Below are positions 7,903 to 27,469 of a DNA stretch of 44,266 nucleotides, one piece after another (within the stretch, counting starts at the first letter, position 1; each line of letters opens with the position of its first letter). Position numbers and translations under genes: made by a program. Origin of the DNA: Clostridia bacterium (GTDB taxonomy: Bacteria; Bacillota; Clostridia; Oscillospirales; Acutalibacteraceae); contig JAFTZU010000034.1 of the NCBI GenBank assembly GCA_017461005.1, forward strand, positions 1-44,266. Direction: 5' to 3'. A model generated the notes under the pieces. That model worked only from the letters and a program-made list of their open reading frames with translations. It had not been told where the DNA came from and ran no database searches.

Positions 7903-8577
7903 TCACAGGGTGTTCTTTTCGACGATCCGGCCGAAGACGATCCGCAGGTTGCCGTTGCGGCAGCGCAGCGCGTCCATGAACTGCTTTGCCTGTCGTTCAT
8001 CTTTCATGAGGACGTCATACCAGAGTTCGTAGAGCGTTCCCATGTTCGTCGTCTTGACCCGGGTCAGTTCCCACTCCTTCGTGTACTGTTCGAACAGGTC
8101 ATCGAAGAGTTCATAGTAGTCGAGGTCTTCCGGGATCGTGATGCGGATCTGCCGCATCTTCGCCGATTTATCGCCAAAGCCGACCAGGGTCAGGACGATG
8201 ACCGAAACAGCCATGATGGCGAAGAAGATGGCGGCCAGAAGCAGCTGGTTCATGCCGCAGGCCAGACCGACGGCCATGGCGACGAAGATGCCGGCGATCT
8301 CCCGGGCGGTGCCGGGCATACTGCGGAAGCGGACCAGCGCAAATGCGCCTGCGACCGCGACACCGGCGCCGATGTTGCCGTTGACCAGCATGATGACAAG
8401 GGCGATGGCCGGCGGCATGATGGCCAGCGTGATGGCCATGGAAGCCGTGTGTTTCGTCTTGAACTGGAAGATCAGCGCGGTGCCGATCCCCAGCAGCAGT
8501 GCGGCGCCGATACAGGCCAGAAAAGTCATGATCGGCATATTGAAAACTTTATCGGAATAAGTGATGCTATCCAGCAT
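7903..8577 (-). CDS. DUF4956 membrane protein
   Basis: A 224-residue protein with four to five hydrophobic helices in the first 135 residues (about 15-37, 46-66, 68-83, 93-110, 112-134) and a soluble C-terminal tail of about 85 residues. The loop RFRSMPGTAREI (84-94) is the conserved signature of DUF4956. The tail (RQIRITIPEDLDYYELFDDLF) resembles an ACT-like or ferredoxin-like fold, which is a guess. The function is not established. Its ATG lies inside the end of the VTC-type polymerase gene (11-nt overlap), so the two are translationally linked, which supports a physical or functional partnership. It is the last gene of the CotH-SGNH-VTC-DUF4956 operon. Confidence 0.85.
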   Translation of the reverse strand: MLDSITYSDKVFNMPIMTFLACIGAALLLGIGTALIFQFKTKHTASMAITLAIMPPAIALVIMLVNGNIGAGVAVAGAFALVRFRSMPGTAREIAGIFVAMAVGLACGMNQLLLAAIFFAIMAVSVIVLTLVGFGDKSAKMRQIRITIPEDLDYYELFDDLFEQYTKEWELTRVKTTNMGTLYELWYDVLMKDERQAKQFMDALRCRNGNLRIVFGRIVEKNTL

Positions 8578-9310
8578 AGCGCGGAGCCTCCCGTTGTTGA
8601 TGTTCTTCTCTTCTGCGGGCCATCATCTTCTGATAGCACCTCCCGTACTTCGAGAACGAAGTCGGATAGATCTCGAGGGCGCTCAAAATCTGTGTCAGCC
8701 ACATCGGAGCGGCACCCGGGATCTTGATCTCCATGACGCACAGGTCCTCATCGAAGAGGTACTCACCGTAGTCTCCGTATACGAGGTCCATGTGGTCCGT
8801 CCGGAACCGGATGTTCCAGTCGAAGGTGATGCGCAGGTCCGGGTCTTCCTTCGCCCGGAAGGCATACCGGTCATAGGCAAGGAACATGCCGGGCTGCAGT
8901 TTGCGGTAGGTCCGGCAGAACCAGTCGATCTCGTTCATGATCTGCCGGTTCGTCACCTGTGGTTCCGGCCCGCCGTTCATGTAGTCGACCGCGTCGTGTT
9001 CACAGGCCCGGACCCGCCGTTTGTAGACGACGCCGTCATATTTCTTCTTGATCTCCATGAAGACCTTTCCGTCCTCTTCGGGGACTCCATAGCTGCGAAG
9101 ACGGAATTTCTCCTTGTAGACCGGTTTCTCGAGCGAACGGCTGATGAGCAGATAATCCGGCGTGTCGTAGTAGACATTGCAGATGGTGCTCTTCGGATAG
9201 TCGTCCGCTTCGAGGTACTCACACAGAGCAGCCCGGAGGAGCCGGTACTGCTTCCGCGTCAGCAGATATTTCTTTTCCACACGCCGAAATGACAATTGTG
9301 TCGCTTTCAC
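8567..9310 (-). CDS. VTC-domain polyphosphate polymerase
   Basis: A 247-residue soluble protein matching the VTC catalytic (triphosphate-tunnel) domain, PF09359. Visible tunnel residues: RRVEKKYLL (9-17), EKFRLRSYG (67-75) with paired arginines, MEIKKKYDGVVYKRR (85-99), YDRYAFR (146-152), VMEIKIPG (192-199) with the metal-binding glutamate, and SFSKYG (218-223). In yeast Vtc4 the equivalent residues make polyphosphate from ATP. No membrane helix is present, so membrane coupling would need a partner such as the overlapping DUF4956 protein. The start is GTG with GGAG 10 nt upstream. It lies 21 nt after the SGNH hydrolase gene. A triphosphatase activity instead of polymerase is possible, since both share the tunnel fold. 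Confidence 0.85.
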   Translation of the reverse strand: MKATQLSFRRVEKKYLLTRKQYRLLRAALCEYLEADDYPKSTICNVYYDTPDYLLISRSLEKPVYKEKFRLRSYGVPEEDGKVFMEIKKKYDGVVYKRRVRACEHDAVDYMNGGPEPQVTNRQIMNEIDWFCRTYRKLQPGMFLAYDRYAFRAKEDPDLRITFDWNIRFRTDHMDLVYGDYGEYLFDEDLCVMEIKIPGAAPMWLTQILSALEIYPTSFSKYGRCYQKMMARRREEHQQREAPRYAG

Positions 9311-9331
9311 GGGGAATCATCTCCAGTTCGT

Positions 9332-10381
9332 TTATGCGTTGATCTCTTTGAGTTTCTTCAGGACCTGTTTGGCGATGTACTGATGGCCCTTCGCACTCGG
9401 GTGGACACCCATCAGGATGAAGCTCGTATCGCTCAGCCATTCGAAAACGGTCGTGCCCTTCGGATAGACGACGTCCGCATCCGGAGCATCGACGAAGTAG
9501 ACGTTTCCGTACTGCTTCGACACGGTCTTATAGTAGCTGTTGAAGGACATCAGGACTTCATCGACCACGTCGAACAGGAAGGAGCGGTCGGTGCCCGGGA
9601 TGACCCGGATGCCCTGGACGGCCTTGTGGTAGCCGACGACAAGGATGTCCGCGTCCTCCGGAGCGATCTCCGTGAGTTCCTTCATGACGACCCGGATGTT
9701 CTTCCGCAGTTCCGCCACTTCTTTGGCGAAGACCGTCAGGAAGTTATCGATGATGACCGGATCGTTCTTCAGGTTGCCGAAGGCAAAGGCCAGATAGTTG
9801 ATGACATCCTGCAGACCGTCGAGGGACTGGAGTTTGTCGAGGTCGATGACGCCGGTCGCATATGCCGCGTTGATGAGGCAGGCCGTGATGTCATTGAGCC
9901 CGCACTGGAACGTAACGAGGTCCGAGTCGGACAGCCATTTGACGACCTCCGGACCCATCGCGCGAAGGCGGACGGTCCGTTCCGGCTTTCTCATGCCGTA
10001 CCAGTCGTTTTCCCGATCGTAGGGGTCCTGATAGCCGAGGCCCCGTTCAAAGAGGATCCGGTAGTCGCAGACCCGGCTGCCGGAGCTGGCGGCGGGCTGG
10101 ACGACGGTTTTTTTACTATTTGTCTGCAGTACATCGCCCACGAGATCAGTGTAGGAACCCTTGACCCGGTTGCCGACACTGAAAGGGTCGGAGCTCTCTT
10201 CCTGCGAGACGAGACCGTACCCGAAGGGGATGCTGTCCCCGAGATAGGTGTACTTCTTATATTGGATCCCTTTGTAGGGTTTTGCGCTGATCGCGAATGC
10301 AGAGACACTGAGGGCACTGACCATCAGGAACGTGCACAGGAGCACCGCCAGCATCCGTTTCCATACTGTTTTCATATCCAT
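9332..10381 (-). CDS. Secreted SGNH/GDSL hydrolase
   Basis: A 349-residue exported hydrolase. A signal peptide covers about residues 1-30 (basic MKTVWKR, then a hydrophobic core, then SVSAFA). Block I is YLGDSIPFGYG with nucleophile Ser50. Block III is QCGLNDI (Asn163). Block V is GVHPSAKGH, giving His327 as the catalytic base, with Gly-Val where Asp-Gly is usual. SGNH enzymes remove acyl or acetyl esters from sugars, lipids or peptidoglycan; the substrate here is unknown. GGAG lies 7 nt before ATG 10381; ATG 10375 is an alternative. The gene begins 22 nt after the CotH gene and is followed 21 nt later by the VTC gene, so it belongs to the operon and acts on the same side of the membrane as CotH. 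Confidence 0.85.
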   Translation of the reverse strand: MDMKTVWKRMLAVLLCTFLMVSALSVSAFAISAKPYKGIQYKKYTYLGDSIPFGYGLVSQEESSDPFSVGNRVKGSYTDLVGDVLQTNSKKTVVQPAASSGSRVCDYRILFERGLGYQDPYDRENDWYGMRKPERTVRLRAMGPEVVKWLSDSDLVTFQCGLNDITACLINAAYATGVIDLDKLQSLDGLQDVINYLAFAFGNLKNDPVIIDNFLTVFAKEVAELRKNIRVVMKELTEIAPEDADILVVGYHKAVQGIRVIPGTDRSFLFDVVDEVLMSFNSYYKTVSKQYGNVYFVDAPDADVVYPKGTTVFEWLSDTSFILMGVHPSAKGHQYIAKQVLKKLKEINA

Positions 10382-10403
10382 TACCTTTCTCCGTTGAATC
10401 GGA

Positions 10404-12107
10404 TCAGGAGTTCGTGTGGTCGGAGAGCCACAGGACTCGTTTGTTACACCACTCCGCCAGGTTGTCGACATAGTCCGTCCAGGACGTCGTCACCCGGTAG
10501 TTGAGTTTGTATTTGCCGGTGCCGATCGCGCGCATCGTGTTCGGGGCCACGACGTACTCGGCACACAGGTTGTTGGTCACCCAGCGGACATTGTTCATGA
10601 GAGCGGAGTCGCGGATCTGGACCGCCTGACGGCCCACGTTCGCTTCACAGTCTTTGAATGCCCACTCATACTCTTGGTAGATCTTGTTGACATGCTGGCG
10701 GAAACTCTTGTGTTTGCCGAGTTCTTGCAGGAGGCTGATCGGCTGGTCGGAAAGGTCCATACCGATATGGTCGATGTACCAGCCTTCCGCGTTGATCTGC
10801 ATCGGTTCGGAAACGCCGACGAAGAACTTGTGGAGCGTGCGGCCGAAGGCGACATCGTAGTCCCAGGCCGGTCCGGCGATGAGCTTGTCGTTCTTCGAAA
10901 GTCCGTCGCGGTGCATGAGCAGGCTGCCGGCATAGCAGTCATAGATCTTCGCAACCTCATACATGAGGTACATCTTCGCCCAGGAGTCCATGTCGAAATA
11001 CTGCTGATACGCTTCCGAGTCGTAATCTTCCAGCGCTTCCCAGGCATTCAGGAAATGTTTCTCGATCGTCTTTTTGGTAGCACCGTTCGCTTTGGCGGTG
11101 TCGCCGACATCCTTGACCGTGATGCGGTTGAAGTAGCCGCTGCCCATGATCGAGACGCCGGGGACACTGTTGATTTCAAACATGCCGGGGATCTGGAACG
11201 AATCCGGGTCGACATAGTTGTCGTTCTCCAGCGCGTAGCCGTTGTCCGGCGTGTTGTAATCGTTCTTCGGTGTCACAAGGTAGTTGCCAAGGTAGGTGCC
11301 GTTCATCCAGACATCCATGAACCGGGTCTTCATCCCGATCCCGAGGTTGTCTGCGAGGTCCATCGCGATCTTATTACGAAGCAGCGAATTGTCGAAGTAG
11401 TTCGCCACAAGGGACCACTTCTTCGCCTTCACGTCCTTGACCATTTTGACACCGTCTTTGCTGTCATAGGAGGCGTCGTCATAGAACGTGATATTGTAAG
11501 GCTTCTTCGGGAGGATCCACGTGGAGTTCCCGCGCCCTTTGATGCTCATATATTTGGTTTTGCCGTCGAACATCGCCTTGCCGTAGCAGGTCTTCTCATG
11601 GTCCGGGTCGTTGTTCATGGACTTGATGGTACCCTTTTTCTCGTCGACCGTCAGGAACAGAGAACCGACAGTCGAGGAACCGCGCACCGTTTTGATGGTA
11701 AGCACTGCCCCGTTGTTCGTCGTGTAGGTCACAGACTGTCCCACTTTGGCGATTGGAGCCTTTCCGCTCTGATACGTCTTTCCACCTTTGGAAAGGGTCA
11801 GGTCCGGATCATCCCAGGAGAAGCACATGCCGGAGGGGTCTACATCGCCCGGGAAATAGACGGCACCGTTCAGGTCCTCATACTGGAACTGGACTTTCGT
11901 TTTCGTCGACAGGCCGGCTTTCTTGTCCGCTTTGACATAGAGTTTGGTGTTGGAACCCACATAGGCGGTATCCAGTGCACCGAGCACATCTGATAAAACA
12001 CCCATATCCCCTTCCTCTTCCGCCGGTGCTTTTGCCGCAAACGACGGGACACAAAGCAGAACGACGAACAGGCACAGAGACATGAGTGCCGCGAGTGCTT
12101 TTTTCAT
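10404..12107 (-). CDS. Secreted CotH-family kinase-like protein
   Basis: A 567-residue exported protein. The signal peptide is about residues 1-24 (MKKALAALMSLCLFV, cleavage near SFA-AKA). A Big/Ig-like N-terminal region (about 50-155) precedes the CotH domain (about 180-490). CotH motifs: KGRGNSTW-ILPKKPYNITF (190-208), NYFDNSLLRNKIAMDLA (236-252), FMDVWMNGTYLGNYLV (263-278), and GPAWDYDVAFG (412-422), the acidic metal- and ATP-binding segment. CotH proteins are atypical protein kinases; in Bacillus CotH phosphorylates spore coat proteins. The signal peptide here argues for a cell-surface rather than spore role. GGAG lies 7 nt before ATG 12107. First gene of the four-gene operon. Confidence 0.88.
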   Translation of the reverse strand: MKKALAALMSLCLFVVLLCVPSFAAKAPAEEEGDMGVLSDVLGALDTAYVGSNTKLYVKADKKAGLSTKTKVQFQYEDLNGAVYFPGDVDPSGMCFSWDDPDLTLSKGGKTYQSGKAPIAKVGQSVTYTTNNGAVLTIKTVRGSSTVGSLFLTVDEKKGTIKSMNNDPDHEKTCYGKAMFDGKTKYMSIKGRGNSTWILPKKPYNITFYDDASYDSKDGVKMVKDVKAKKWSLVANYFDNSLLRNKIAMDLADNLGIGMKTRFMDVWMNGTYLGNYLVTPKNDYNTPDNGYALENDNYVDPDSFQIPGMFEINSVPGVSIMGSGYFNRITVKDVGDTAKANGATKKTIEKHFLNAWEALEDYDSEAYQQYFDMDSWAKMYLMYEVAKIYDCYAGSLLMHRDGLSKNDKLIAGPAWDYDVAFGRTLHKFFVGVSEPMQINAEGWYIDHIGMDLSDQPISLLQELGKHKSFRQHVNKIYQEYEWAFKDCEANVGRQAVQIRDSALMNNVRWVTNNLCAEYVVAPNTMRAIGTGKYKLNYRVTTSWTDYVDNLAEWCNKRVLWLSDHTNS

Positions 12108-13209: not shown

Positions 13210-14367
13210 TTACTCGATGACCGGAAGGTCAGTGACACGGTCCGCGATCTCCAGGAAGAAGTTCTTGTAGTCCTCTTTGGTCTCGAGGACGCCCATGTAG
13301 GAGGTGTGGTCCTTGTACTCCTGCGGCATGACGTTCCAGATGCCCGGTTTGATGTCCGCGGCGTCGAAGTCCTGCCAGGGCTGGCCGATCGGGTGGTGCG
13401 CCGCCGGGATGTTGACGAGGCCGTCGTTCGGTAGCCACTCATCGGAGACCTGCTTCCGCTTCCAGTTACCGGTCATGTAACCGAAGGGACGCATGGGAAG
13501 CCACATGTCTTTCGTGCCGGACTGGCCGCCCTTCTTGTTCTTCTCGGTGCGGACACCGTAATATGAGAAGTAGTAGATATTGTCGTAGATCTTGTAGTCC
13601 TTTGTCATTTCCTGACAGACTTCTCTGCTCAGTTCCCAGCCGATATTGTCTTCCCGAAGGTTGACGAAGTGCTGGATGAGGGTCGGGTCCAGGGACAGAT
13701 GCTTCGTCTGGCTGGAGACGCCAAAGCGGTCCAGATGGAAGCCGTAGACTTTGGAGAACCAGGTGCCGGAAGTCAGCATGGCGAGAGCACCGACCGCCCA
13801 CTCGGCAATATCCATAGTCCGCTTGCCCAACTGTTCCGGCAGGGTAACGCCGTTGTGCGTACCGGCGAGGGTCGTGCAGCTGTGGACCCATTTCTCCTTG
13901 CCGCCTTCGAACAGCGGGCTCAGGTCGTCGGGATCGGTGCCGGCGCGCTCTTCCTCCGAGCCTTCTGCCAGAAGATGGAGCAGCGTCGTGACAGTGGGGC
14001 CGCCGAAGCTGTGGCCGATGATATTGATCTTCTGGATCTTCCCGGCCTCGTCGAGTTCGCCCCAGTTCGGGACGACGCCCGGATAGGTCTTGCCGTAACG
14101 GTCATGACCATACTTTTCGGAGTGGACCTTGCCGTAGTCGACACGGCCGCCCTTGATGTAGGCATACAGCAGGCAGGCTCTGTCCCACATACCTGAGAAC
14201 ATGCCGACGGACGGTGTGTCCGCAGTGTAGCCGGCATCCTGCAGGGTCTCTTTGGCGCTGCCGTTCCACATACCGAACAGCGGGCAGATATCGTTGATGC
14301 GGTCCTCTTCGCCCCAGCACAGGAATCCGTGGACCAGGACAAAAGGATAGTTGTTGGTCTTTCTCAT
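13210..14367 (-). CDS. Triacylglycerol lipase-like hydrolase (staphylococcal/Geobacillus type), paralogue 1
   Basis: A 385-residue alpha/beta hydrolase of lipase families I.5/I.6. YPFVLVHGFLCW (7-18) is the oxyanion-hole region. The nucleophile elbow is GHSFGG with Ser120; the predicted triad is completed by Asp315 (LPNDGLV) and His354 (KDHTSYMG). The structural zinc ligands known in Geobacillus L1 lipase are matched by Asp62 (MWDRAC), His82 and His88 (VHSEKYGH), and Asp213 (HLDRFG). These enzymes hydrolyse long-chain glycerides and esters. Unlike classical members it has no signal peptide or propeptide; the catalytic domain begins right at the ATG, which has GGGAG 9 nt upstream. A diverged paralogue lies at 20015-21145. 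Confidence 0.85.
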   Translation of the reverse strand: MRKTNNYPFVLVHGFLCWGEEDRINDICPLFGMWNGSAKETLQDAGYTADTPSVGMFSGMWDRACLLYAYIKGGRVDYGKVHSEKYGHDRYGKTYPGVVPNWGELDEAGKIQKINIIGHSFGGPTVTTLLHLLAEGSEEERAGTDPDDLSPLFEGGKEKWVHSCTTLAGTHNGVTLPEQLGKRTMDIAEWAVGALAMLTSGTWFSKVYGFHLDRFGVSSQTKHLSLDPTLIQHFVNLREDNIGWELSREVCQEMTKDYKIYDNIYYFSYYGVRTEKNKKGGQSGTKDMWLPMRPFGYMTGNWKRKQVSDEWLPNDGLVNIPAAHHPIGQPWQDFDAADIKPGIWNVMPQEYKDHTSYMGVLETKEDYKNFFLEIADRVTDLPVIE

Positions 14368-14532
14368 AAAACATGTCTCCCTTACATATTTCTTTGATAC
14401 ATTGTTATTGTTTTGACAAAAAACTGTCCGCGTACAAATTACCATTAATAGTATATCATGATTTACTTAGTCTGAACCGCCAAAAATCGACCGTTCATTT
14501 TCGACATTTTGACGAACGGGAAAACAAAACAA

Positions 14533-14592: not shown

Positions 14593-16035
14593 TCAGTCTT
14601 TCGCGACCGGGACGTCTTCCCCTTCGACCTTGACCTTTTTGGTCTTGTCGCGGGTGAAGAACGTGACGACTGCGAAGCAGCAGGCTGCCAGTGCGAACAG
14701 GATGATGCCCGCCATCTGGAGTTTGCCGGTGGCGCCGCCGTCGGGCAGCAGGAAGACATAGTCGTTGAACTTCGTGGCGATGCCGCCGATGAGTGCCGCA
14801 AGACCGGCCACAGCAGCGATGACGCCGGGGACGAAGCCCTTGGTCTTCAGGAGACCGCGAATGGCGGCGATGAGACCGAAGATGGAACCGAGGACGAGCA
14901 GAGCGGACATGATGAGACGTCCGACGATCTCCTTGGTGGCGTTCTGGGTCATGTCATCGACATAAGTCGCGAGGGTATCGCGGACCTTGGTCGCCTGATC
15001 GAGGTCGATGTAGTTCTTGGTCTCGTCGAGCATCTCGACTTTGGAACCGTCTTTGTTGTACTTGATGTAGTCAAAATCTTTCCCGAGGTTGTCAGCGGGA
15101 GACGCAACGACGACCGTGCCATCCTTGCGGATGTAGTTCTTCTGGGCGAGGACTTCATCGAGACCGTCCTGCAGCTGGCCCATACCGTCTTCGAACTGTT
15201 TGAGCTGGGCACGGCCCTCTTTCAGCTGTTTCTGACCGTCTGCATAGTCGGAGTAACCCTTGGCAAGGTCTTTCTCACCCTGGGCGACCTGTTTACGGCC
15301 GTCCGCGAGCTGAGCTTCGCCGTCCTGGAGCTGCTTCTTGCCGGCGGCAAGAGCCTTCTTACCTTCGGCGAGCTGCTTCAGACCGTCTTCGTACTGCTTG
15401 AGCTGGGCCTTACCGTCTTTGACCATATCGGTGACATACTTCGGCAGATCGCGAACGTCGTTCGGGATGTCGAAGAGGCCGAGTTTCTTCATGAGAGGAC
15501 GGACGATGGACATGAACCATTCCTGAGCGGTCTCAAAGCCCGGGAGCTTTGCGATGGTGCCGTCACGGAAGGCGATGTACTGGTTGAGATAAGGAATGAT
15601 CGGCTCGATCTTGGCGAGCGTCGCCTTACCTTCTTTGTAGGCAGCAGTGTTGTCGTCGATCTGCTTCTGGCCGGCAGCGAGCTGCTTCTGACCGTCGGCA
15701 TAATCCTTATAACCCTGCGCGAGCTGGGCTTCGCCGTCTTTCAGCTGCTTTTTGCCGTCTGCAAGCTGGACTTCACCGTCTGCGAGCTGGGCAGCGCCGT
15801 CTTCGAGCTGGACAAGGCCGTCCTTGTACTGGACGACACCGTCGAGGTAAGCGGTCTCGTTCTCTTTGAGCTGAGAGATACCGTCCGTCAGCTGTGCGAC
15901 GGGGTCGCCTTCCCCGCTGGTCAGAGAATCTTTGACTGCCAGACCGTCACGGATGCCGAGGCCGCCGGCGATGATGCCGAAGATGCTGGCAAGCGCGAGC
16001 AGGATGCTGACAAGTTTATGGGTCGTCTTGTTCAT
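14593..16035 (-). CDS. Membrane-anchored heptad-repeat (YhgE/Pip-like) protein
   Basis: A 480-residue protein of unproved function. Layout: N-terminal membrane helix (about 8-28), a first block of seven-residue repeats (about 64-138, units such as QLADGEV, QLKDGEA, QLAAGQK), a unique hydrophobic segment (about 139-205), a second repeat block (about 206-292, units such as QLQDGEA, QLADGRK), a unique domain (about 293-365), and three C-terminal membrane helices (about 371-393, 401-422, 439-461) with a charged tail. The L-x-x-G-x-x-x-L-x-x-G pattern is that of the external coiled stalks of YhgE/Pip and some MMPL-type proteins linked to type VII secretion or phage infection. AGGAG lies 8 nt before the ATG; it is monocistronic. 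Confidence 0.75.
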   Translation of the reverse strand: MNKTTHKLVSILLALASIFGIIAGGLGIRDGLAVKDSLTSGEGDPVAQLTDGISQLKENETAYLDGVVQYKDGLVQLEDGAAQLADGEVQLADGKKQLKDGEAQLAQGYKDYADGQKQLAAGQKQIDDNTAAYKEGKATLAKIEPIIPYLNQYIAFRDGTIAKLPGFETAQEWFMSIVRPLMKKLGLFDIPNDVRDLPKYVTDMVKDGKAQLKQYEDGLKQLAEGKKALAAGKKQLQDGEAQLADGRKQVAQGEKDLAKGYSDYADGQKQLKEGRAQLKQFEDGMGQLQDGLDEVLAQKNYIRKDGTVVVASPADNLGKDFDYIKYNKDGSKVEMLDETKNYIDLDQATKVRDTLATYVDDMTQNATKEIVGRLIMSALLVLGSIFGLIAAIRGLLKTKGFVPGVIAAVAGLAALIGGIATKFNDYVFLLPDGGATGKLQMAGIILFALAACCFAVVTFFTRDKTKKVKVEGEDVPVAKD

Positions 16036-16070
16036 GATTGTTTCTCCTTTCTCACAAAAAGACAAAATCA

Positions 16071-16111
16071 TATCAACCTTGATAATACACTAAGCTGTGC
16101 GGACAAATCAA
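16071..16111 (-). promoter_or_regulatory. Promoter with palindrome for the heptad-repeat protein gene
   Basis: Minus strand: TTGATT (complement of 16106-16111), 18-nt spacer, TATTAT (complement of 16082-16087). An inverted repeat TATCAA-CC-TTGATA (16071-16084) overlaps the -10 box and the expected start point, a plausible repressor site. Confidence 0.5.
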
Positions 16112-20014: not shown

Positions 20015-21145
20015 TTATTTGTCCAGGGCGGCGATGAAGTTGCCGAGCTGGAGGATGTACTCCTTATAGACCTCGGGGTCGACCTCTTCGCCGATGTAGA
20101 AATTGTGGTCTCTCGGCTGTTCGACCGGGAAGACGTTCCAGATGCCTTTCTGCACCGGTCCGCGATACGAGAACCCTTCGCCGGGGTCGAACTCCTGCCA
20201 GGGTTCGTTCTTCGGATGGAGTGCGGAGGCCAGCGGGACCCGGCCGTCATTGGGCCGCCATTCGGGGCCGTAGTATTTTGAATGCATGCTGCCCATGATG
20301 ATGGCGGACGAGCGGTGACGCTCGACGAGCTCGTCGGTCGGCCACTGGGCTTCGCCGCCGAGGATCGGCTGTGTGCCGACGGCAGCCACAGAGAAGTAGT
20401 AGACGTTTTCATAGGGGTGGAAGTCTCCGGTGAAGCGGTCCGCGCCCGACGGGGTCAGTTCGTAGAAGCAGTTGTCTTCCTTCCGTCTGAGATAGCCGCG
20501 GATCTTCTCCGGCGCGTAGCGGAGCCGCAGTTTGTCGCTGGTGAAACCGAACCGGTCGAGGTCGTATTTGTCCGCGTCGTCTTTCGTCGTGCCGCTGTTG
20601 AGGTTCGCCTTGGAGAACTCCATGAAGTAGGACGTGTAGATGTACCCGCCTGCCATGGTCAGAACGGTCGTGCCGTTGTGGGGCGCTGCCAGTGTGAAGA
20701 TGGAGTGGATCCAGTCCTCGTGGCCGCCCTGGAAGAGCGGGTGGAGCTGGTCGGCCGGGGTGACGGCCTTTTCCCGTTCATCGCCTTCGACGAGCAGGTG
20801 CAGAAGGAAGCGGATGGTGGCGCCGCCGAAGCTGTGGCCCACGAAATTCGCCTTGACCCTCTCCCCGTTCTCGTCGAGCTCGCCCCAGCGCGGGAACATG
20901 CCCTCAAAGGTCTTGCCGTACCGCGGATGGTCGCAACGCTCCGAATGCGCGATCCCGTAGTCGACGGTGCCGCCCTTCAGCATGGCATACAGTTCACAGC
21001 AGCGGTCCCACAGACCGTTGAACGGGCCGATGTGAGGAGAGTAACACTCATAGCCCGCTTCCGTGAGGATCTCACGGGCAGGCGCAAACGTATCCGTCAT
21101 GTTGTTGTAGCCATGGATCAGAACGAAGGGATAGTTGTTAGGCAT
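20015..21145 (-). CDS. Triacylglycerol lipase-like hydrolase (staphylococcal/Geobacillus type), paralogue 2
   Basis: A 376-residue alpha/beta hydrolase clearly homologous to the gene at 13210-14367 (shared starts NNYPFVL-HG, WDR-C, KGG-VDYG, GHSFGG, PHNG/THNG, PW-DFD/PWQEFD, GIWNV). Ser105 (GHSFGG), Asp300 (RPNDGRV) and His347 (RDHNFYIG) form the predicted triad. Zinc-site equivalents are Asp47 (LWDRCC), His67 and His73 (AHSERCDH), and Asp197 (YDLDRFG). No signal peptide is present, so it appears cytoplasmic. AAAGGA lies 9 nt before the ATG at 21145; longer in-frame upstream codons lack a ribosome-binding site. Monocistronic with its own promoter. Sequence divergence from paralogue 1 suggests an old duplication with separate substrates. 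Confidence 0.84.
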   Translation of the reverse strand: MPNNYPFVLIHGYNNMTDTFAPAREILTEAGYECYSPHIGPFNGLWDRCCELYAMLKGGTVDYGIAHSERCDHPRYGKTFEGMFPRWGELDENGERVKANFVGHSFGGATIRFLLHLLVEGDEREKAVTPADQLHPLFQGGHEDWIHSIFTLAAPHNGTTVLTMAGGYIYTSYFMEFSKANLNSGTTKDDADKYDLDRFGFTSDKLRLRYAPEKIRGYLRRKEDNCFYELTPSGADRFTGDFHPYENVYYFSVAAVGTQPILGGEAQWPTDELVERHRSSAIIMGSMHSKYYGPEWRPNDGRVPLASALHPKNEPWQEFDPGEGFSYRGPVQKGIWNVFPVEQPRDHNFYIGEEVDPEVYKEYILQLGNFIAALDK

Positions 21146-21191
21146 GTTTGCGGGTCCTTTCCAAAAACCTTGGTTTGCTGAACTTCGGTTT

Positions 21192-21220
21192 ATTATCGCC
21201 CTTTTTGGCAATGGACGCAA
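21192..21220 (-). promoter_or_regulatory. Putative promoter of lipase 2
   Basis: Minus strand: TTGCGT (complement of 21215-21220), 17-nt spacer, GATAAT (complement of 21192-21197), about 47 nt before the ATG. Confidence 0.5.
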
Positions 21221-21266
21221 GTCATAATTTTTACCAAACTGACAGTCGCACAAATCTGTCAGACAA

Positions 21267-22874: not shown

Positions 22875-24875
22875 ATGAGCAAGAAGAAAGAATACTCACA
22901 GGCGGAACTCGAATACCTGCGGCTGCTCGGCAAGGAGTACCCGACGGAACAGTCCGCCGCCACCGAGATCATCAACCTCAACGCCATCCTGAACCTGCCG
23001 AAGGCGACGGAGCATTTCATGTCGGACGTCCACGGGGAATACGAACCCTTCGTCCACGTCATGAACAGTGCCTCCGGTGCCATCCGTGAGAAGATCGACG
23101 GTCTGTTCGCCGATGAGCTGACGGCAGATGAAAGAGACACCCTCGCCACCATCGTCTACTACCCGGAAGAAAAGATGGCGGAACTGCTGGAAGGGGTCGA
23201 GGACGAGACGGCCTTCTACCACGAGACCCTCCACCACCTCATCGAGCTCACCCACGTCATCACCTCGAAGTACACCCGGTCGAAAGTCCGTAAAGCGCTC
23301 CCCCCGGAGTACGCCTACGTCATCGATGAGCTCATCAACATCGACTTCGACCTCCACAACAAGAAAGAGTATTACGACAACATCCTCAACACCATCATCG
23401 AGATCGGCAAGGCACAGGACTTCATCGTCGCGGTCTGCAGCGTCATCAAACGCCTCATCGTCGATCGCCTCCACCTGGTCGGCGACATCTTCGACCGGGG
23501 CCCCCGTGCCGACATCGTCATGGACGCCCTGATGGAGCACCACTCCCTCGACATCCAGTTCGGCAACCACGACGTCGTGTGGATCGGCGCCGCGGCGGGC
23601 TCCCCCATCTGCATCGCCACCGTCCTGTCGAACTCCATCCTTTACAACAACCTTCCGGTCCTCGAGATCGGCTACGGCATCAGCCTTCGCCCGCTGTCTC
23701 TCTTTGCGAACGAGTACTATGCCCTCACCGACCTCTCGAGCTTCGCCACGCGCATCCTCGACAAGGAGGAAAAGAAGCACACAAAGAACCGCGATCTGCT
23801 GCTGACGGCCCGCATGTCCAAGGCCATCACCATGATCCTCTTCAAACTGATGGGCCAGGTCGTCAAACGCAACCCGGACTTCGACATGATGGACCGCGCG
23901 TCCCTCGAGCACATCAACTACGAGGACAGCACCGTCGAGATCGACGGCAAGATCTACCCGATGAAGGACTGCGACTTCCCCACCGTCGACCCGGAAGACC
24001 CCTACACCCTGACGCCGGAAGAGCAGGACATGATGAACGAGATGGTCAAGGCGTTCCGCGGTTCCGAGAAGCTCCAGAAGCACGTCCGCTTCCTCCTCGA
24101 CAAGGGCTCCATGTACAAGTGTTACAACGGCAACCTGCTCGTCCACGGCGGCGTCCCGATGAACGCGGACGGCACCTTCAAAGTCTTCAACTATGAAGGC
24201 AAAGAGTACAGCGGCAAAGCGCTCCTCGACTACTGCGACAAGAAGGTCCGCGACGGCTACTTCGCCGCTGACACCGATCCGAACCGCCAGCGCGGCCAGG
24301 ACTTCATGTGGTTCCTGTGGTGCGGCAAGTGGGCACCCACCTTCGCCCGGGAGAAGATCACCACCTTCGAACGCCGGTTCATCGCCGACAAGTCCACCTG
24401 GACCGAAGCCAGAGACCCGTATTACCAGATCACCCAGACCGCGGAAGGCTGTAAGATCATCCTCCACGAGTTCGGCCTCGACTCCGACTTCTCCCACATC
24501 ATCAACGGCCACACCCCCGTCAAGACGACCAAGGGCGAGACCCCCATCCGCGGAGAAGGCAAACTCTTCCTCATCGACGGCGGGTTCTCCAAGGCCTATC
24601 AGAAGACCACCGGCATCGCCGGCTACAGCCTCATCTTCAACTCCCACGGCATGCGCATCTCCGCTCTGGAACCCTTCGAAGGGTTCGAAGACGCGGTCCG
24701 GTTCAACAAGGACATCATTCCCGAGACGGTCCTCATGCAGCCCTGCGACCACCGGATGAAGATCTATGAGACCGACATCGGCAAGAAGCTGCAGAAGAAC
24801 ATCGACATGCTGACCCGGCTGATGGACGTGTATCGCCGCGGCATCCTGCCGGAACACCCGGACAAACTGGACTGA
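22875..24875 (+). CDS. fbp: Fructose-1,6-bisphosphatase, class III
   Basis: A 666-residue class III (Firmicutes-type) FBPase, fructose-1,6-bisphosphate to fructose-6-phosphate, a gluconeogenic step. The metallophosphatase core is intact: DVHGEYEPF (51-59), GDIFDRGPRAD (203-213) and GNHDVVW (230-236), with the family-typical C-terminal motif NGHTPVKTTKGETPIRGEGK and DGGFSKAYQKTTGIAGY. These residues bind the catalytic divalent metals. GGGAG lies 7 nt before ATG 22875; the open frame upstream overlaps the promoter and was rejected. Monocistronic, divergent from tRNA-Ala. Confidence 0.96.
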   Translation: MSKKKEYSQAELEYLRLLGKEYPTEQSAATEIINLNAILNLPKATEHFMSDVHGEYEPFVHVMNSASGAIREKIDGLFADELTADERDTLATIVYYPEEKMAELLEGVEDETAFYHETLHHLIELTHVITSKYTRSKVRKALPPEYAYVIDELINIDFDLHNKKEYYDNILNTIIEIGKAQDFIVAVCSVIKRLIVDRLHLVGDIFDRGPRADIVMDALMEHHSLDIQFGNHDVVWIGAAAGSPICIATVLSNSILYNNLPVLEIGYGISLRPLSLFANEYYALTDLSSFATRILDKEEKKHTKNRDLLLTARMSKAITMILFKLMGQVVKRNPDFDMMDRASLEHINYEDSTVEIDGKIYPMKDCDFPTVDPEDPYTLTPEEQDMMNEMVKAFRGSEKLQKHVRFLLDKGSMYKCYNGNLLVHGGVPMNADGTFKVFNYEGKEYSGKALLDYCDKKVRDGYFAADTDPNRQRGQDFMWFLWCGKWAPTFAREKITTFERRFIADKSTWTEARDPYYQITQTAEGCKIILHEFGLDSDFSHIINGHTPVKTTKGETPIRGEGKLFLIDGGFSKAYQKTTGIAGYSLIFNSHGMRISALEPFEGFEDAVRFNKDIIPETVLMQPCDHRMKIYETDIGKKLQKNIDMLTRLMDVYRRGILPEHPDKLD

Positions 24876-24881
24876 CAGAAA

Positions 24882-24910
24882 TTGACAACCCTTTGAAAGT
24901 ACAGTAAAAT
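24882..24910 (+). promoter_or_regulatory. Promoter of the small zinc-ribbon gene
   Basis: Consensus TTGACA (24882-24887), 17-nt spacer, TAAAAT (24905-24910). It starts 7 nt after the fbp stop, so the small gene is probably expressed independently. Confidence 0.7.
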
Positions 24911-24942
24911 AACAATAATCTGGGTTTGAAGGAGACTTGACA

Positions 24943-25239
24943 ATGAAAAAGACATCAGACGCCATCGGATTCTTTGGAGATTCCAAACCGGTCGCCTGCC
25001 CGCACTGCGGCAAGACCGTCAACATGCAGATGCTCCGTTCCTCCAACGGGATCGGCGCCTTCGGCATCAGTGTCCTGAACTACAAGCACGACCTGTTCGC
25101 CATCTGCCCCGAGTGCTCCGCCCTCTTCGGCGTGGACCGCAAGGTCTCCCGCATCGAAGCGAGAAACACGATGGACCAGTATGCCGACATCCCGGCTGAG
25201 AGCCTCATCTTCCAGCAGGTCCTCCCCATCAAAGGCTGA
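24943..25239 (+). CDS. Small zinc-ribbon-like hypothetical protein
   Basis: A 98-residue protein I do not recognise by name. It has two CxxC pairs (CPHCGKTVNM near 18-27 and CPECSALFGVD near 55-65), spaced as in a zinc ribbon that binds one zinc ion. The part between (RSSNGIGAFGISVLNYKHDLFAI) looks like beta strands, and the C-terminus is helical. No transmembrane or catalytic motif is visible. AAGGAG lies 8 nt before the ATG, and the gene has a near-consensus promoter and strong terminator, so it is a real, probably well-expressed single gene. Similar small CxxC/CxxC proteins are common in Clostridia with unknown function. Confidence 0.75.
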   Translation: MKKTSDAIGFFGDSKPVACPHCGKTVNMQMLRSSNGIGAFGISVLNYKHDLFAICPECSALFGVDRKVSRIEARNTMDQYADIPAESLIFQQVLPIKG

Positions 25240-25299: not shown

Positions 25300-25675
25300 C
25301 GCGTTTTTTACTGAATATTTTAACCGAATATTTGAGTAAAATGTTTTTTTATAAATTGATTCGGCAAAGATTTTACATTATTCCTTATCTTTTGTGCATT
25401 TTTTGTACACGTTAAAGAGAATCCAATTCCCACGCATTTATCCCATTCCTGCCATACGGTTGACAAGTGTAAAGGTTGTGTTCTGTAAGCTGTACGATTT
25501 TGTAAAGTGATTTCCTTGTCGCAATCGGACACATTTTAAAAAAATGATTCAGAATCTATTAAGATTGTTTCCGTATATTTGAGCCATAACATACACTATG
25601 TGTATATGTTGTACGATTTGTATTCAGTTTTTCGTACAACATCTGTCAGAGAAAAGGATTGAAAGAGGAATCATT
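25300..25675 (+). other. Long A/T-rich gene-free leader of the acyl-CoA synthetase gene
   Basis: With the terminator before it this is the longest gene-free stretch in the window, and its base composition contrasts strongly with the GC-rich genes. No convincing reading frame is seen. A TTGACA at about 25462 has no good -10 partner at the right distance. A partial direct repeat occurs: TGTACGATTTTGTA (about 25491) and TGTACGATTTGTA (25610-25622). The 3' end carries the inverted repeats listed separately. A regulatory leader or a non-coding RNA is possible but unproved. Confidence 0.5.
25591..25642. repeat. Two adjacent inverted repeats upstream of the acyl-CoA synthetase
   Basis: First: ATACAC-TAT-GTGTAT (25591-25605). 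Second: perfect 11-bp arms ATGTTGTACGA (25606-25616) and TCGTACAACAT (25632-25642) with a 15-nt spacer, ending 33 nt before the ATG. These could be operators for a dimeric regulator or a hairpin in the mRNA leader. Confidence 0.6.
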
Positions 25676-27445
25676 ATGAGTGCTATGGAAATGACGAAAC
25701 GACTCCCCTCCCAGGAAAGACCCTGGATGCAGTTCTTCAGTGAAAAGGCGCAGAAGGCTGAAGTCCCGAAAGAGACGATCTATGAGGCGGTCGTCCGCCG
25801 CAATAAAGGCTTTGAAAACAATGTCGCCATCAATTATTTCGATCGGAAGATCACGTATCGCGAACTGATCGACCGTTCCAACAATGCCGCGGCAGCTTTT
25901 GCCTCCCTCGGTGTCGAAAAGGGCGATATCGTCGCCTGTGCGACCGTCACGTTCCCGGAGCCTGTCTATTCCCTGTACGGACTCAACAAGCTCGGCGCGA
26001 CCCTGATGACCCTCGACCCGCGCCTGACCGCAGATCAGATCAAGGAGTTCGTCGATCGCTCCGGAGCGAAGATCCTCCTTCTGGTCGACCTCTTCTATGA
26101 TAAATTGAAAGAAGACCTTCAGAAGATGGGCCTCGAGCAGATCATCATCATCTCTGCCGACACCTCCCTCCCGAAAGCCCTCAAATTCGTCAAACAGTTC
26201 AAGATGCCGGCCCCGAAGATCAAAGAAGAAGGAAACGTCATCACCTGGAACACGTTTGCAAAGATGGGCAGCTCCGACCCGAGTGCTTCCTACACGGCAG
26301 CGTACGGCGAGAACGACTGTGCCGCGATCACACTGACCGGCGGTACCACCGGCATGCCCAAGGGCGTCATGCTGAGCCATGACGGGTTCAATGCGATCGC
26401 CACCTCCTTCGAAAACTGCGGCGTCTCCTATACGAGAGACCAGCGCTTTTTGAACATCATCCCGATGTTCTCCTCCTACGGCATCGTCTCGAGCCTCCAT
26501 ATGCCCTTCTGCCTCGGTCTCGAAGACGTCGTCATCCCGAAGTTCGACCAGGAGAAGGTCGGCCACTACGTCAAGAAATACCGCCCGGCCCACACCCTGA
26601 TGGTCCCGGCGCACTACGAAAAACTCATGAACAGCAAGGAGATGGCGAACGGGTTCGACCTCAGCTTCTTCGAGACGGCCGGTTCCGGCGGCGACACCAT
26701 GAATGCCGGCACCGAAGCGAAACTCAACGGCTTCCTCAAAGAGCACGGTTCCCGCTTCCCGCTGTCCCAGGGCTACGGCATGAGCGAAGTCAGCTCCGCC
26801 GGTTCCTGCTACTGCAACGGAAACTTCCGTTCCCTCAGCGTCGGCTATCCCCTGCTCATGAACACCATCTCCATCTTCAAACCGGGGACCACCGAAGAGG
26901 TCGGCTATAACGTGGAAGGCGAGATCTGCATGACCGGTCCCTCCAACATGCTCGGCTATCTCAACGATCCGAAAGAGACCGAGAACGTCATGATCGAGCA
27001 TCCGGACGGCAAGGTCTGGATCCACTCGGGCGACATCGGTTACATGGATGAAGACGGTTACCTCTACATCAAGGGCCGCATCAAGAGAATGATCACGCCG
27101 TTCAACGGCCATAAGATCTTCCCGGCTCAGATCGAAGGACTCATCGGTCACCACGATGCTGTCAAGAGCTGCGCCGTCGTCGGTGTCAAAGACTTTGACC
27201 ACGTCCAGGGCGAATGGCCCGTCGCGTACGTTGAACTGAAGGAAGGCGAAGACATCGTTCCCGAGACCGTTCTCGAGGAACTGAAGGCGATGTACGTCGC
27301 AGAGCTCGATGACCTCGCCCGCCCGATCGAGACGATCGTCCTCGATGAAATGCCGAGAGAAGGCATGGGCAAGATCGCCTACAAGCAGCTCTCCGCAAAA
27401 TACAACGCGGAACAGGAAGCCGCCAGAAAGAAGGCCGCCAGCTGA
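25676..27445 (+). CDS. Acyl-CoA synthetase / AMP-dependent ligase
   Basis: A 589-residue ANL-superfamily enzyme that would activate a carboxylic acid with ATP and CoA. The AMP-binding P-loop is TLTGGTTGMPKGVMLSH (219-235), the adenosine motif YGMSEVSSAGS, the hinge-region motif HSGDIGYMDEDGYLYIKGR, and the catalytic C-terminal lysine lies in EGMGKIAYKQL (Lys566). The sequence is closer to long- or medium-chain acyl-CoA synthetases than to acetyl-CoA synthetase, but substrate is not assignable. GAGGA lies about 6 nt before ATG 25676; upstream frame is A/T-rich and non-coding. Monocistronic with an unusually long leader and convergent with rubrerythrin. Confidence 0.87.
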   Translation: MSAMEMTKRLPSQERPWMQFFSEKAQKAEVPKETIYEAVVRRNKGFENNVAINYFDRKITYRELIDRSNNAAAAFASLGVEKGDIVACATVTFPEPVYSLYGLNKLGATLMTLDPRLTADQIKEFVDRSGAKILLLVDLFYDKLKEDLQKMGLEQIIIISADTSLPKALKFVKQFKMPAPKIKEEGNVITWNTFAKMGSSDPSASYTAAYGENDCAAITLTGGTTGMPKGVMLSHDGFNAIATSFENCGVSYTRDQRFLNIIPMFSSYGIVSSLHMPFCLGLEDVVIPKFDQEKVGHYVKKYRPAHTLMVPAHYEKLMNSKEMANGFDLSFFETAGSGGDTMNAGTEAKLNGFLKEHGSRFPLSQGYGMSEVSSAGSCYCNGNFRSLSVGYPLLMNTISIFKPGTTEEVGYNVEGEICMTGPSNMLGYLNDPKETENVMIEHPDGKVWIHSGDIGYMDEDGYLYIKGRIKRMITPFNGHKIFPAQIEGLIGHHDAVKSCAVVGVKDFDHVQGEWPVAYVELKEGEDIVPETVLEELKAMYVAELDDLARPIETIVLDEMPREGMGKIAYKQLSAKYNAEQEAARKKAAS

Positions 27446-27469
27446 TTTATCCAGACATCTCAATACAAG

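Follow-up and report, generated by a model that had tools for sequence, protein, structure and literature searches.

A conserved VTC–DUF4956 gene pair with secreted CotH and SGNH partners in a Clostridia bacterium: a candidate cell-surface phosphate module

Comparison With Described Systems

Gram-positive loci for the exopolysaccharide Pel contain an accessory group of CotH, a polyphosphate (polyP) polymerase and DUF4956 (PMC7112168; here and below, statements on cited papers refer to the available parts of their texts). The same three families stand side by side in a four-gene operon on the minus strand of the window, which is a 44,266-nucleotide (nt) stretch of contig JAFTZU010000034.1 of a Clostridia bacterium (order Oscillospirales; assembly GCA_017461005.1, 95% complete). 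The operon encodes a CotH-family protein, an SGNH-type hydrolase, a VTC domain protein and a DUF4956 membrane protein. It differs from the Pel group, which also includes DUF4832 (PMC7112168, PMC12345266), in that the genome has no PelG, an SGNH gene is present, DUF4832 is absent from the four products and the VTC belongs to another lineage. Its VTC and DUF4956 genes represent a strongly conserved, near-strictly co-occurring and co-inherited unit, and this bond is a more useful result than the SGNH-bearing variant.

The Pel locus of Streptococcus intermedius encodes a secreted CotH, a polyP polymerase and a protein with four transmembrane segments and MgtC and ACT features, and deletions showed that the pel genes are required (PMC12345266). 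The four-transmembrane, ACT-bearing protein, SIR_1592, probably takes the position of DUF4956. The analyses in that 2025 paper detected the three genes in this arrangement nowhere but in the Pel locus (PMC12345266), a statement that does not hold in the order studied here. Since the trio is found outside Pel in this order, the issue is no longer one of Pel regulation but of a more general module.

A similar set was described in 2010 for the NELoc-2 locus of Clostridium perfringens, with VTC domain proteins, CotH and membrane proteins of 222-226 amino acids (aa) named tubulin/FtsZ GTPase (PMC2879425); the VTC/polyP polymerase proteins and CotH of this locus also appear in PMC11677781. The 222-226 aa proteins are probably DUF4956 proteins. 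NELoc-2 resembles the operon in that such a membrane protein follows each VTC gene and CotH comes after them, but its VTC genes number two, it also encodes a resolvase, a HEAT protein and a glycosyltransferase, and its gene table, in the available part of PMC2879425, contains no SGNH. Three loci of the order (L187-L189) are laid out like NELoc-2, as VTC, DUF4956 and CotH. L187 has an additional long protein and a HEAT protein, and in L189 a deacetylase with SLH domains lies between VTC and DUF4956.

The yeast VTC complex (Vtc4/Vtc3/Vtc1) shares the tunnel domain fold and a set of mapped basic residues with the VTC of the operon. The latter has no SPX or membrane domain, and its partner is DUF4956 and not PF02656, in contrast to the domain make-up of yeast VTC (PMC12526157). 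A preliminary description of this DNA had proposed a bacterial analogue of the VTC complex. The conserved VTC–DUF4956 unit and the polymerase-like fold agree with this, but DUF4956 has no match to the yeast VTC membrane domain. The same description had regarded the added SGNH gene and the joint function as undescribed. The trio of CotH, polyP polymerase and DUF4956 is known from Pel loci (PMC7112168) and a similar set from NELoc-2 (PMC2879425). The Pel-free, SGNH-bearing form appears to be new, and its kind was already known from Pel loci. The term ‘SGNH’ occurs zero times in the available part of PMC7112168, and no wider search was aimed at SGNH. A search for the exact terms ‘CotH’, ‘VTC domain’ and ‘DUF4956’ together found no paper; subscription literature lay mostly outside this search. 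In the same literature three papers contain DUF4956, and one contains both ‘CotH’ and ‘polyphosphate polymerase’, PMC7112168 being missed there by its spelling ‘poly-phosphate’.

The Operon and Its Proposed Function

The operon consists of the following features:

10404..12107, minus strand: CotH-family protein, predicted secreted, atypical kinase fold; ATG at 12107, stop ending at 10404; 567 aa; opens the operon
9332..10381, minus strand: SGNH/GDSL-type hydrolase, predicted secreted; ATG at 10381, stop ending at 9332; 349 aa
8567..9310, minus strand: VTC domain protein without SPX or membrane domain; GTG at 9310, stop ending at 8567; 247 aa
7903..8577, minus strand: DUF4956 polytopic membrane protein; ATG at 8577, stop ending at 7903; 224 aa
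7862..7889, minus strand: intrinsic terminator-like hairpin with T-rich tail, 3' of the operon; 12-pair stem, loop of 4; pattern match only

The layout had been described correctly beforehand: CotH and SGNH are separated by 22 nt, SGNH and VTC by 21 nt, and VTC and DUF4956 overlap by 11 nt. A purine-rich stretch lies 5' of all four starts, and judged by spacing the four genes are likely co-transcribed. The promoter scan gave no promoter-like site directly 5' of CotH on the minus strand; a promoter-like site at 12633-12605 precedes a tRNA Met-Trp-Thr cluster that lies upstream of the operon. The terminator noted earlier was recovered as a pattern match, and the scanned region contains nine terminator-like sites, compared with a mean of 5.6 in shuffles. 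All four products score above their Pfam cut-offs (CotH 92.7, Lipase_GDSL_2 44.4, VTC 151.8 and DUF4956 56.2 bits), and none has a Pfam match to the PF02656 membrane domain or the SPX domain at E 0.01. The predicted topologies also stood: CotH and SGNH have N-terminal hydrophobic stretches of signal-peptide type, judged by hydropathy alone, and by the same measure VTC has no membrane segment and DUF4956 has multiple spans.

In our judgement there is an even chance that the operon forms a phosphate module of the cell surface. The observed basis of this proposal is the gene content, the VTC fold, the co-occurrence and co-inheritance of VTC and DUF4956, the recurrent association with CotH and the four-gene order conserved within the genus; we infer that polyP is synthesised in this organism, that it is transferred via DUF4956 and that CotH and SGNH share a task outside the cell. 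The VTC protein would produce polyP from cytosolic adenosine triphosphate (ATP) at the inner face of the membrane, and DUF4956, as its near-obligate partner, would most likely receive or hold the polyP chain or pass it across the membrane. DUF4956 would serve the exit of the VTC tunnel, with its R83/R85 loop in the cytosol if the C-terminal domain is located there. CotH and SGNH, once secreted, would contribute to this process by modifying a protein or glycan of the cell surface, and in sister systems the outer role could be filled by Cthe_2159 proteins, Pel enzymes or a deacetylase such as that of L189. If polyP is exported, secreted kinases gain a plausible donor. A more specific version seems doubtful to us, namely that VTC and DUF4956 form a prokaryotic polyP synthase-exporter with a membrane part unrelated to that of yeast, that the exported polyP serves CotH as phosphate donor or as cargo and that SGNH trims the receiving glycan. 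PolyP as the donor for CotH would, if true, solve the lack of extracellular ATP.

VTC and DUF4956 as a Conserved Unit

The co-occurrence of VTC and DUF4956 was surveyed in an order sample of 197 genomes, in which the genome of the window is the sole member of its genus, and a genus sample comprised eight genomes. VTC was matched in 138 genomes of the order sample and DUF4956 in 133, and all 133 genomes with DUF4956 also contain VTC; five contain VTC only, none DUF4956 only and 59 neither. Among the matches listed, to which all adjacency counts for VTC, DUF4956 and CotH refer, 129 of the 150 VTC genes have a DUF4956 start within 3 kilobases (kb). DUF4956 lies within 500 nt of VTC in 76 of 80 close relatives (the best 80 among 592 confirmed loci, ranked by similarity to the VTC of the window), in whose loci one flank is shorter than 4.5 kb in 35 cases. 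A same-strand DUF4956 accompanies 106 of 111 compared VTC rows, with open frames that touch or overlap in 83, and the distances of the two families are correlated with r 0.95 over 102 pairs (top of 500 shuffles 0.24). Among 14 control genomes, three gave matches to VTC and the same three to DUF4956. Corynebacterium glutamicum has matches to VTC, DUF4956 and CotH. The preliminary description had suggested surveying the neighbourhoods of PF09359 and DUF4956 for CotH and SGNH partners, and the near-strict co-occurrence of VTC and DUF4956 supports the proposed unit. Fusions of VTC with DUF4956 or of CotH with VTC, considered as proof of contact, were absent among the open frames examined.

The genome of the window contains a second pair on contig C82 (L003, 833-6200), where a response regulator, a histidine kinase, VTC, DUF4956 and a Cthe_2159 protein are encoded in a row. 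Of the 80 VTC relatives, 41 have a same-strand gene for a Cthe_2159 protein (PF14262) no more than 4.5 kb away. Such loci resemble the operon in VTC lineage and DUF4956 partner, but at C82 the carbohydrate-binding Cthe_2159 protein and the upstream two-component system replace CotH and SGNH. Across related genomes VTC and DUF4956 nearly always stay paired, and their secreted partners vary.

DUF4956 denotes a domain of unknown function, for which its restriction to VTC genomes in this sample provides a testable role. It looks weakly MgtC-like in its membrane part, with a ferredoxin-like C-terminal domain, and may be distantly akin to MgtC. MgtC (PF02308) scored 10.5 bits against the DUF4956 of the window (E 0.78, below the cut-off of 31.4), and 28 of 61 aligned DUF4956 proteins matched MgtC at E <=1, with a best E of 0.002. 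A sequence search against solved structures gave nothing useful, and Foldseek gave no match at E <=0.001; the list of structural matches was filled by the C-terminal domain and barely probed the membrane part. R83 and R85 in the basic loop are invariant. The main competitor of the proposed module is that DUF4956 is a sensor or regulator (MgtC-like and ACT/ferredoxin-like) that gates VTC or phosphate balance while polyP stays inside the cell, CotH and SGNH being co-regulated and independent of polyP. We consider this rather unlikely: the pair is repeatedly accompanied by secreted proteins (CotH, Cthe_2159), an indication of an outward task but not a decisive one.

The VTC Protein and Polyphosphate

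The score of the VTC protein far exceeds the PF09359 cut-off of 23 bits, and its nearest tunnel folds are Vtc4-type polyP polymerase domains. Sixteen conserved profile positions are identical in Vtc4, including K200, R264, R266, E279, K281, K294, R361, R373 and D377 (positions in chain 8i6v_E); the identity of the tunnel-lining residues of Vtc4 is presumed here. E194, K196, S220 and K221 of the VTC protein are invariant in 20 aligned sequences and belong to the part of the domain beyond the residue-by-residue mapping onto Vtc4. The earlier claim that all tunnel residues are present thus goes further than these matches show. By fold the protein is a probable polyP polymerase, and it seems improbable that it is a triphosphatase or another tunnel enzyme without polymerase activity. 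No assayed bacterial VTC enzyme is named in the literature searched, including the available part of PMC12526157.

PPK2 was matched in none of the eight genus genomes. PPK1 had no match in the genome of the window, an absence that is not certain since the assembly is 95% complete. In the order sample 46 genomes contain VTC and PPK1, 92 VTC only, 23 PPK1 only and 36 neither. Since 92 of the 138 VTC genomes have no PPK1 match, VTC may be the polyP system of those genomes.

CotH and Its Association With VTC

The CotH protein has an N-terminal hydrophobic segment (residues 1-29). D390 and W415-D416 are invariant in 20 aligned CotH proteins and, by profile alignment, correspond to the motifs FDG and PWD in the CotH of Bacillus (5jd9); we take D390 and D416 to be the catalytic Asp pair. 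With the PF08757 profile match and this conserved pair, CotH is a predicted kinase. Many CotH proteins have an HNYYLY motif, whose Asn is not kept in the CotH of the window, nor in L163, L164, L171 and L174.

The expectation that CotH-VTC-DUF4956 neighbourhoods recur was borne out. A CotH start lies within 6 kb of 33 of the 150 VTC genes, in 31 genomes with the window counted (the CotH list held 150 listed matches and the two of the own genome). Chance adjacency was rejected on this number, as about 1.4 would be expected by a rough estimate. Twenty order loci were inspected, of which 18 belong to these 33 and the other two (G062, G114) were among the first entries of the CotH list; in this selected set, which is not a frequency measure, 16 have the order VTC-DUF4956-CotH (two with intervening genes), three CotH-VTC-DUF4956 and one is without DUF4956. 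At locus L198 a TIR-domain protein (8123-9529, minus strand) directly precedes VTC-DUF4956-CotH.

The VTC tree was built from 109 of the 111 rows (rows <=180 aa left out), with uneven sampling and a rough, unsettled bootstrap. A long branch with full support divides the tree, and 19 of the 20 CotH-linked order rows fall to one side of it. Opposite them, the window groups with its five genus relatives in a clade (100/100) that lies among rows of Cthe_2159 type or with DUF4956 only; L184, L071 and L109, which also have CotH nearby, are placed there too. The CotH tree, in which duplicate short loci spoiled the near/far labels, was used only to place the CotH of the window, on long branches; this protein falls into a long-branched genus clade with the second CotH of the own genome, apart from the main CotH clade. 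The simplest reading is that CotH was recruited independently by VTC–DUF4956 pairs, at least twice.

That the operon is what remains of a former Pel locus is very improbable and already disfavoured: the three families are the described Pel accessory group (PMC7112168), and PelG exceeded the cut-off in three of the 197 order genomes, beside CotH in all three, but the own genome (95% complete) gave no hit to PelG, the only pel gene searched for, PelG does not exceed the cut-off in 28 of the 31 genomes where CotH is near VTC (among them G153, with a weak match below it) and the VTC of the window lies outside the clade of the two Pel-linked VTCs (L194, L195). Weak PelG matches below the cut-off were found in four more order genomes.

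The SGNH Gene in the Genus

The SGNH protein contains the motifs GDS (with serine S50), GxND and HPSAKGH, the last of which provides the His. Besides the own genome, four of the 197 order genomes have a match to it (best E 3e-9, 24% identity, partial length), and none of the 80 relatives' loci has an SGNH match near VTC. SGNH in a VTC locus was seen only in this genus; beyond the order, the search covered the 80 relatives' loci. Among the eight genus genomes, the five others with a window-type VTC contain a close SGNH orthologue (59-82% identity), and CotH-SGNH-VTC-DUF4956 order is kept in all five loci, which makes the four-gene arrangement more than chance. CotH is incomplete in two of the genus loci: in L145 the contig start truncates it, and in L147 a stop close to a contig end splits it. 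L148 has two CotH frames in tandem before SGNH, a partial one (1-474) truncated by the contig start and a full one (534-2222).

Each genus genome has 11 to 25 SGNH matches, some of them pieces. Since the family is expanded in the genus, the SGNH of the operon is likely a captured family member. The own genome (G000) encodes SGNH proteins on contigs C95 (partly in tandem), C112, C200, C28, C151, C33, C119 and others. VTC rows of genus-mates are identical to rows of rumen assemblies (L083/L150 and L097/L151; roe deer rumen, RUG351), an indication that the genus inhabits the rumen.

Weighing of the Surface Module

Several points weigh against the proposed cell-surface phosphate module. The activities of all four products are predictions from sequence, and the genome counts ignore kinship. 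Co-inheritance of VTC and DUF4956 could reflect regulation instead of polyP transfer, and the VTC system is dispensable, as genus genome G200 (99% complete) is without any VTC. CotH is not near 117 of the 150 VTC genes, and of the 76 genomes that contain VTC and CotH among the matches listed only 31 have the two in proximity; among the 80 close relatives CotH is near VTC in two and absent nearby in 78. In SGNH the Asp three residues before the His is absent, this one position being occupied by Met or Leu in the window and five orthologues; it is absent also in seven distinct aligned paralogues. In S. intermedius loss of SIR_1592 gave more Pel and loss of SIR_1594 (CotH) less, the aggregation of both deletion strains was >50% lower in 10% ASM, and for deletion of SIR_1593 (polyP polymerase) the available part of the paper reports no aggregation change (PMC12345266). 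Since the deletions of the polymerase, SIR_1592 and CotH differ, these phenotypes are unlike one tight pathway.

Other Features of the Window

Large open frames at 14596-16071, 22899-25067 and 25649-27463 (minus strand), which have no Pfam match at 1e-4, are candidate genes. Two Lip_C lipase-like proteins are encoded at 13213-14445 and 20018-21253 (minus strand).
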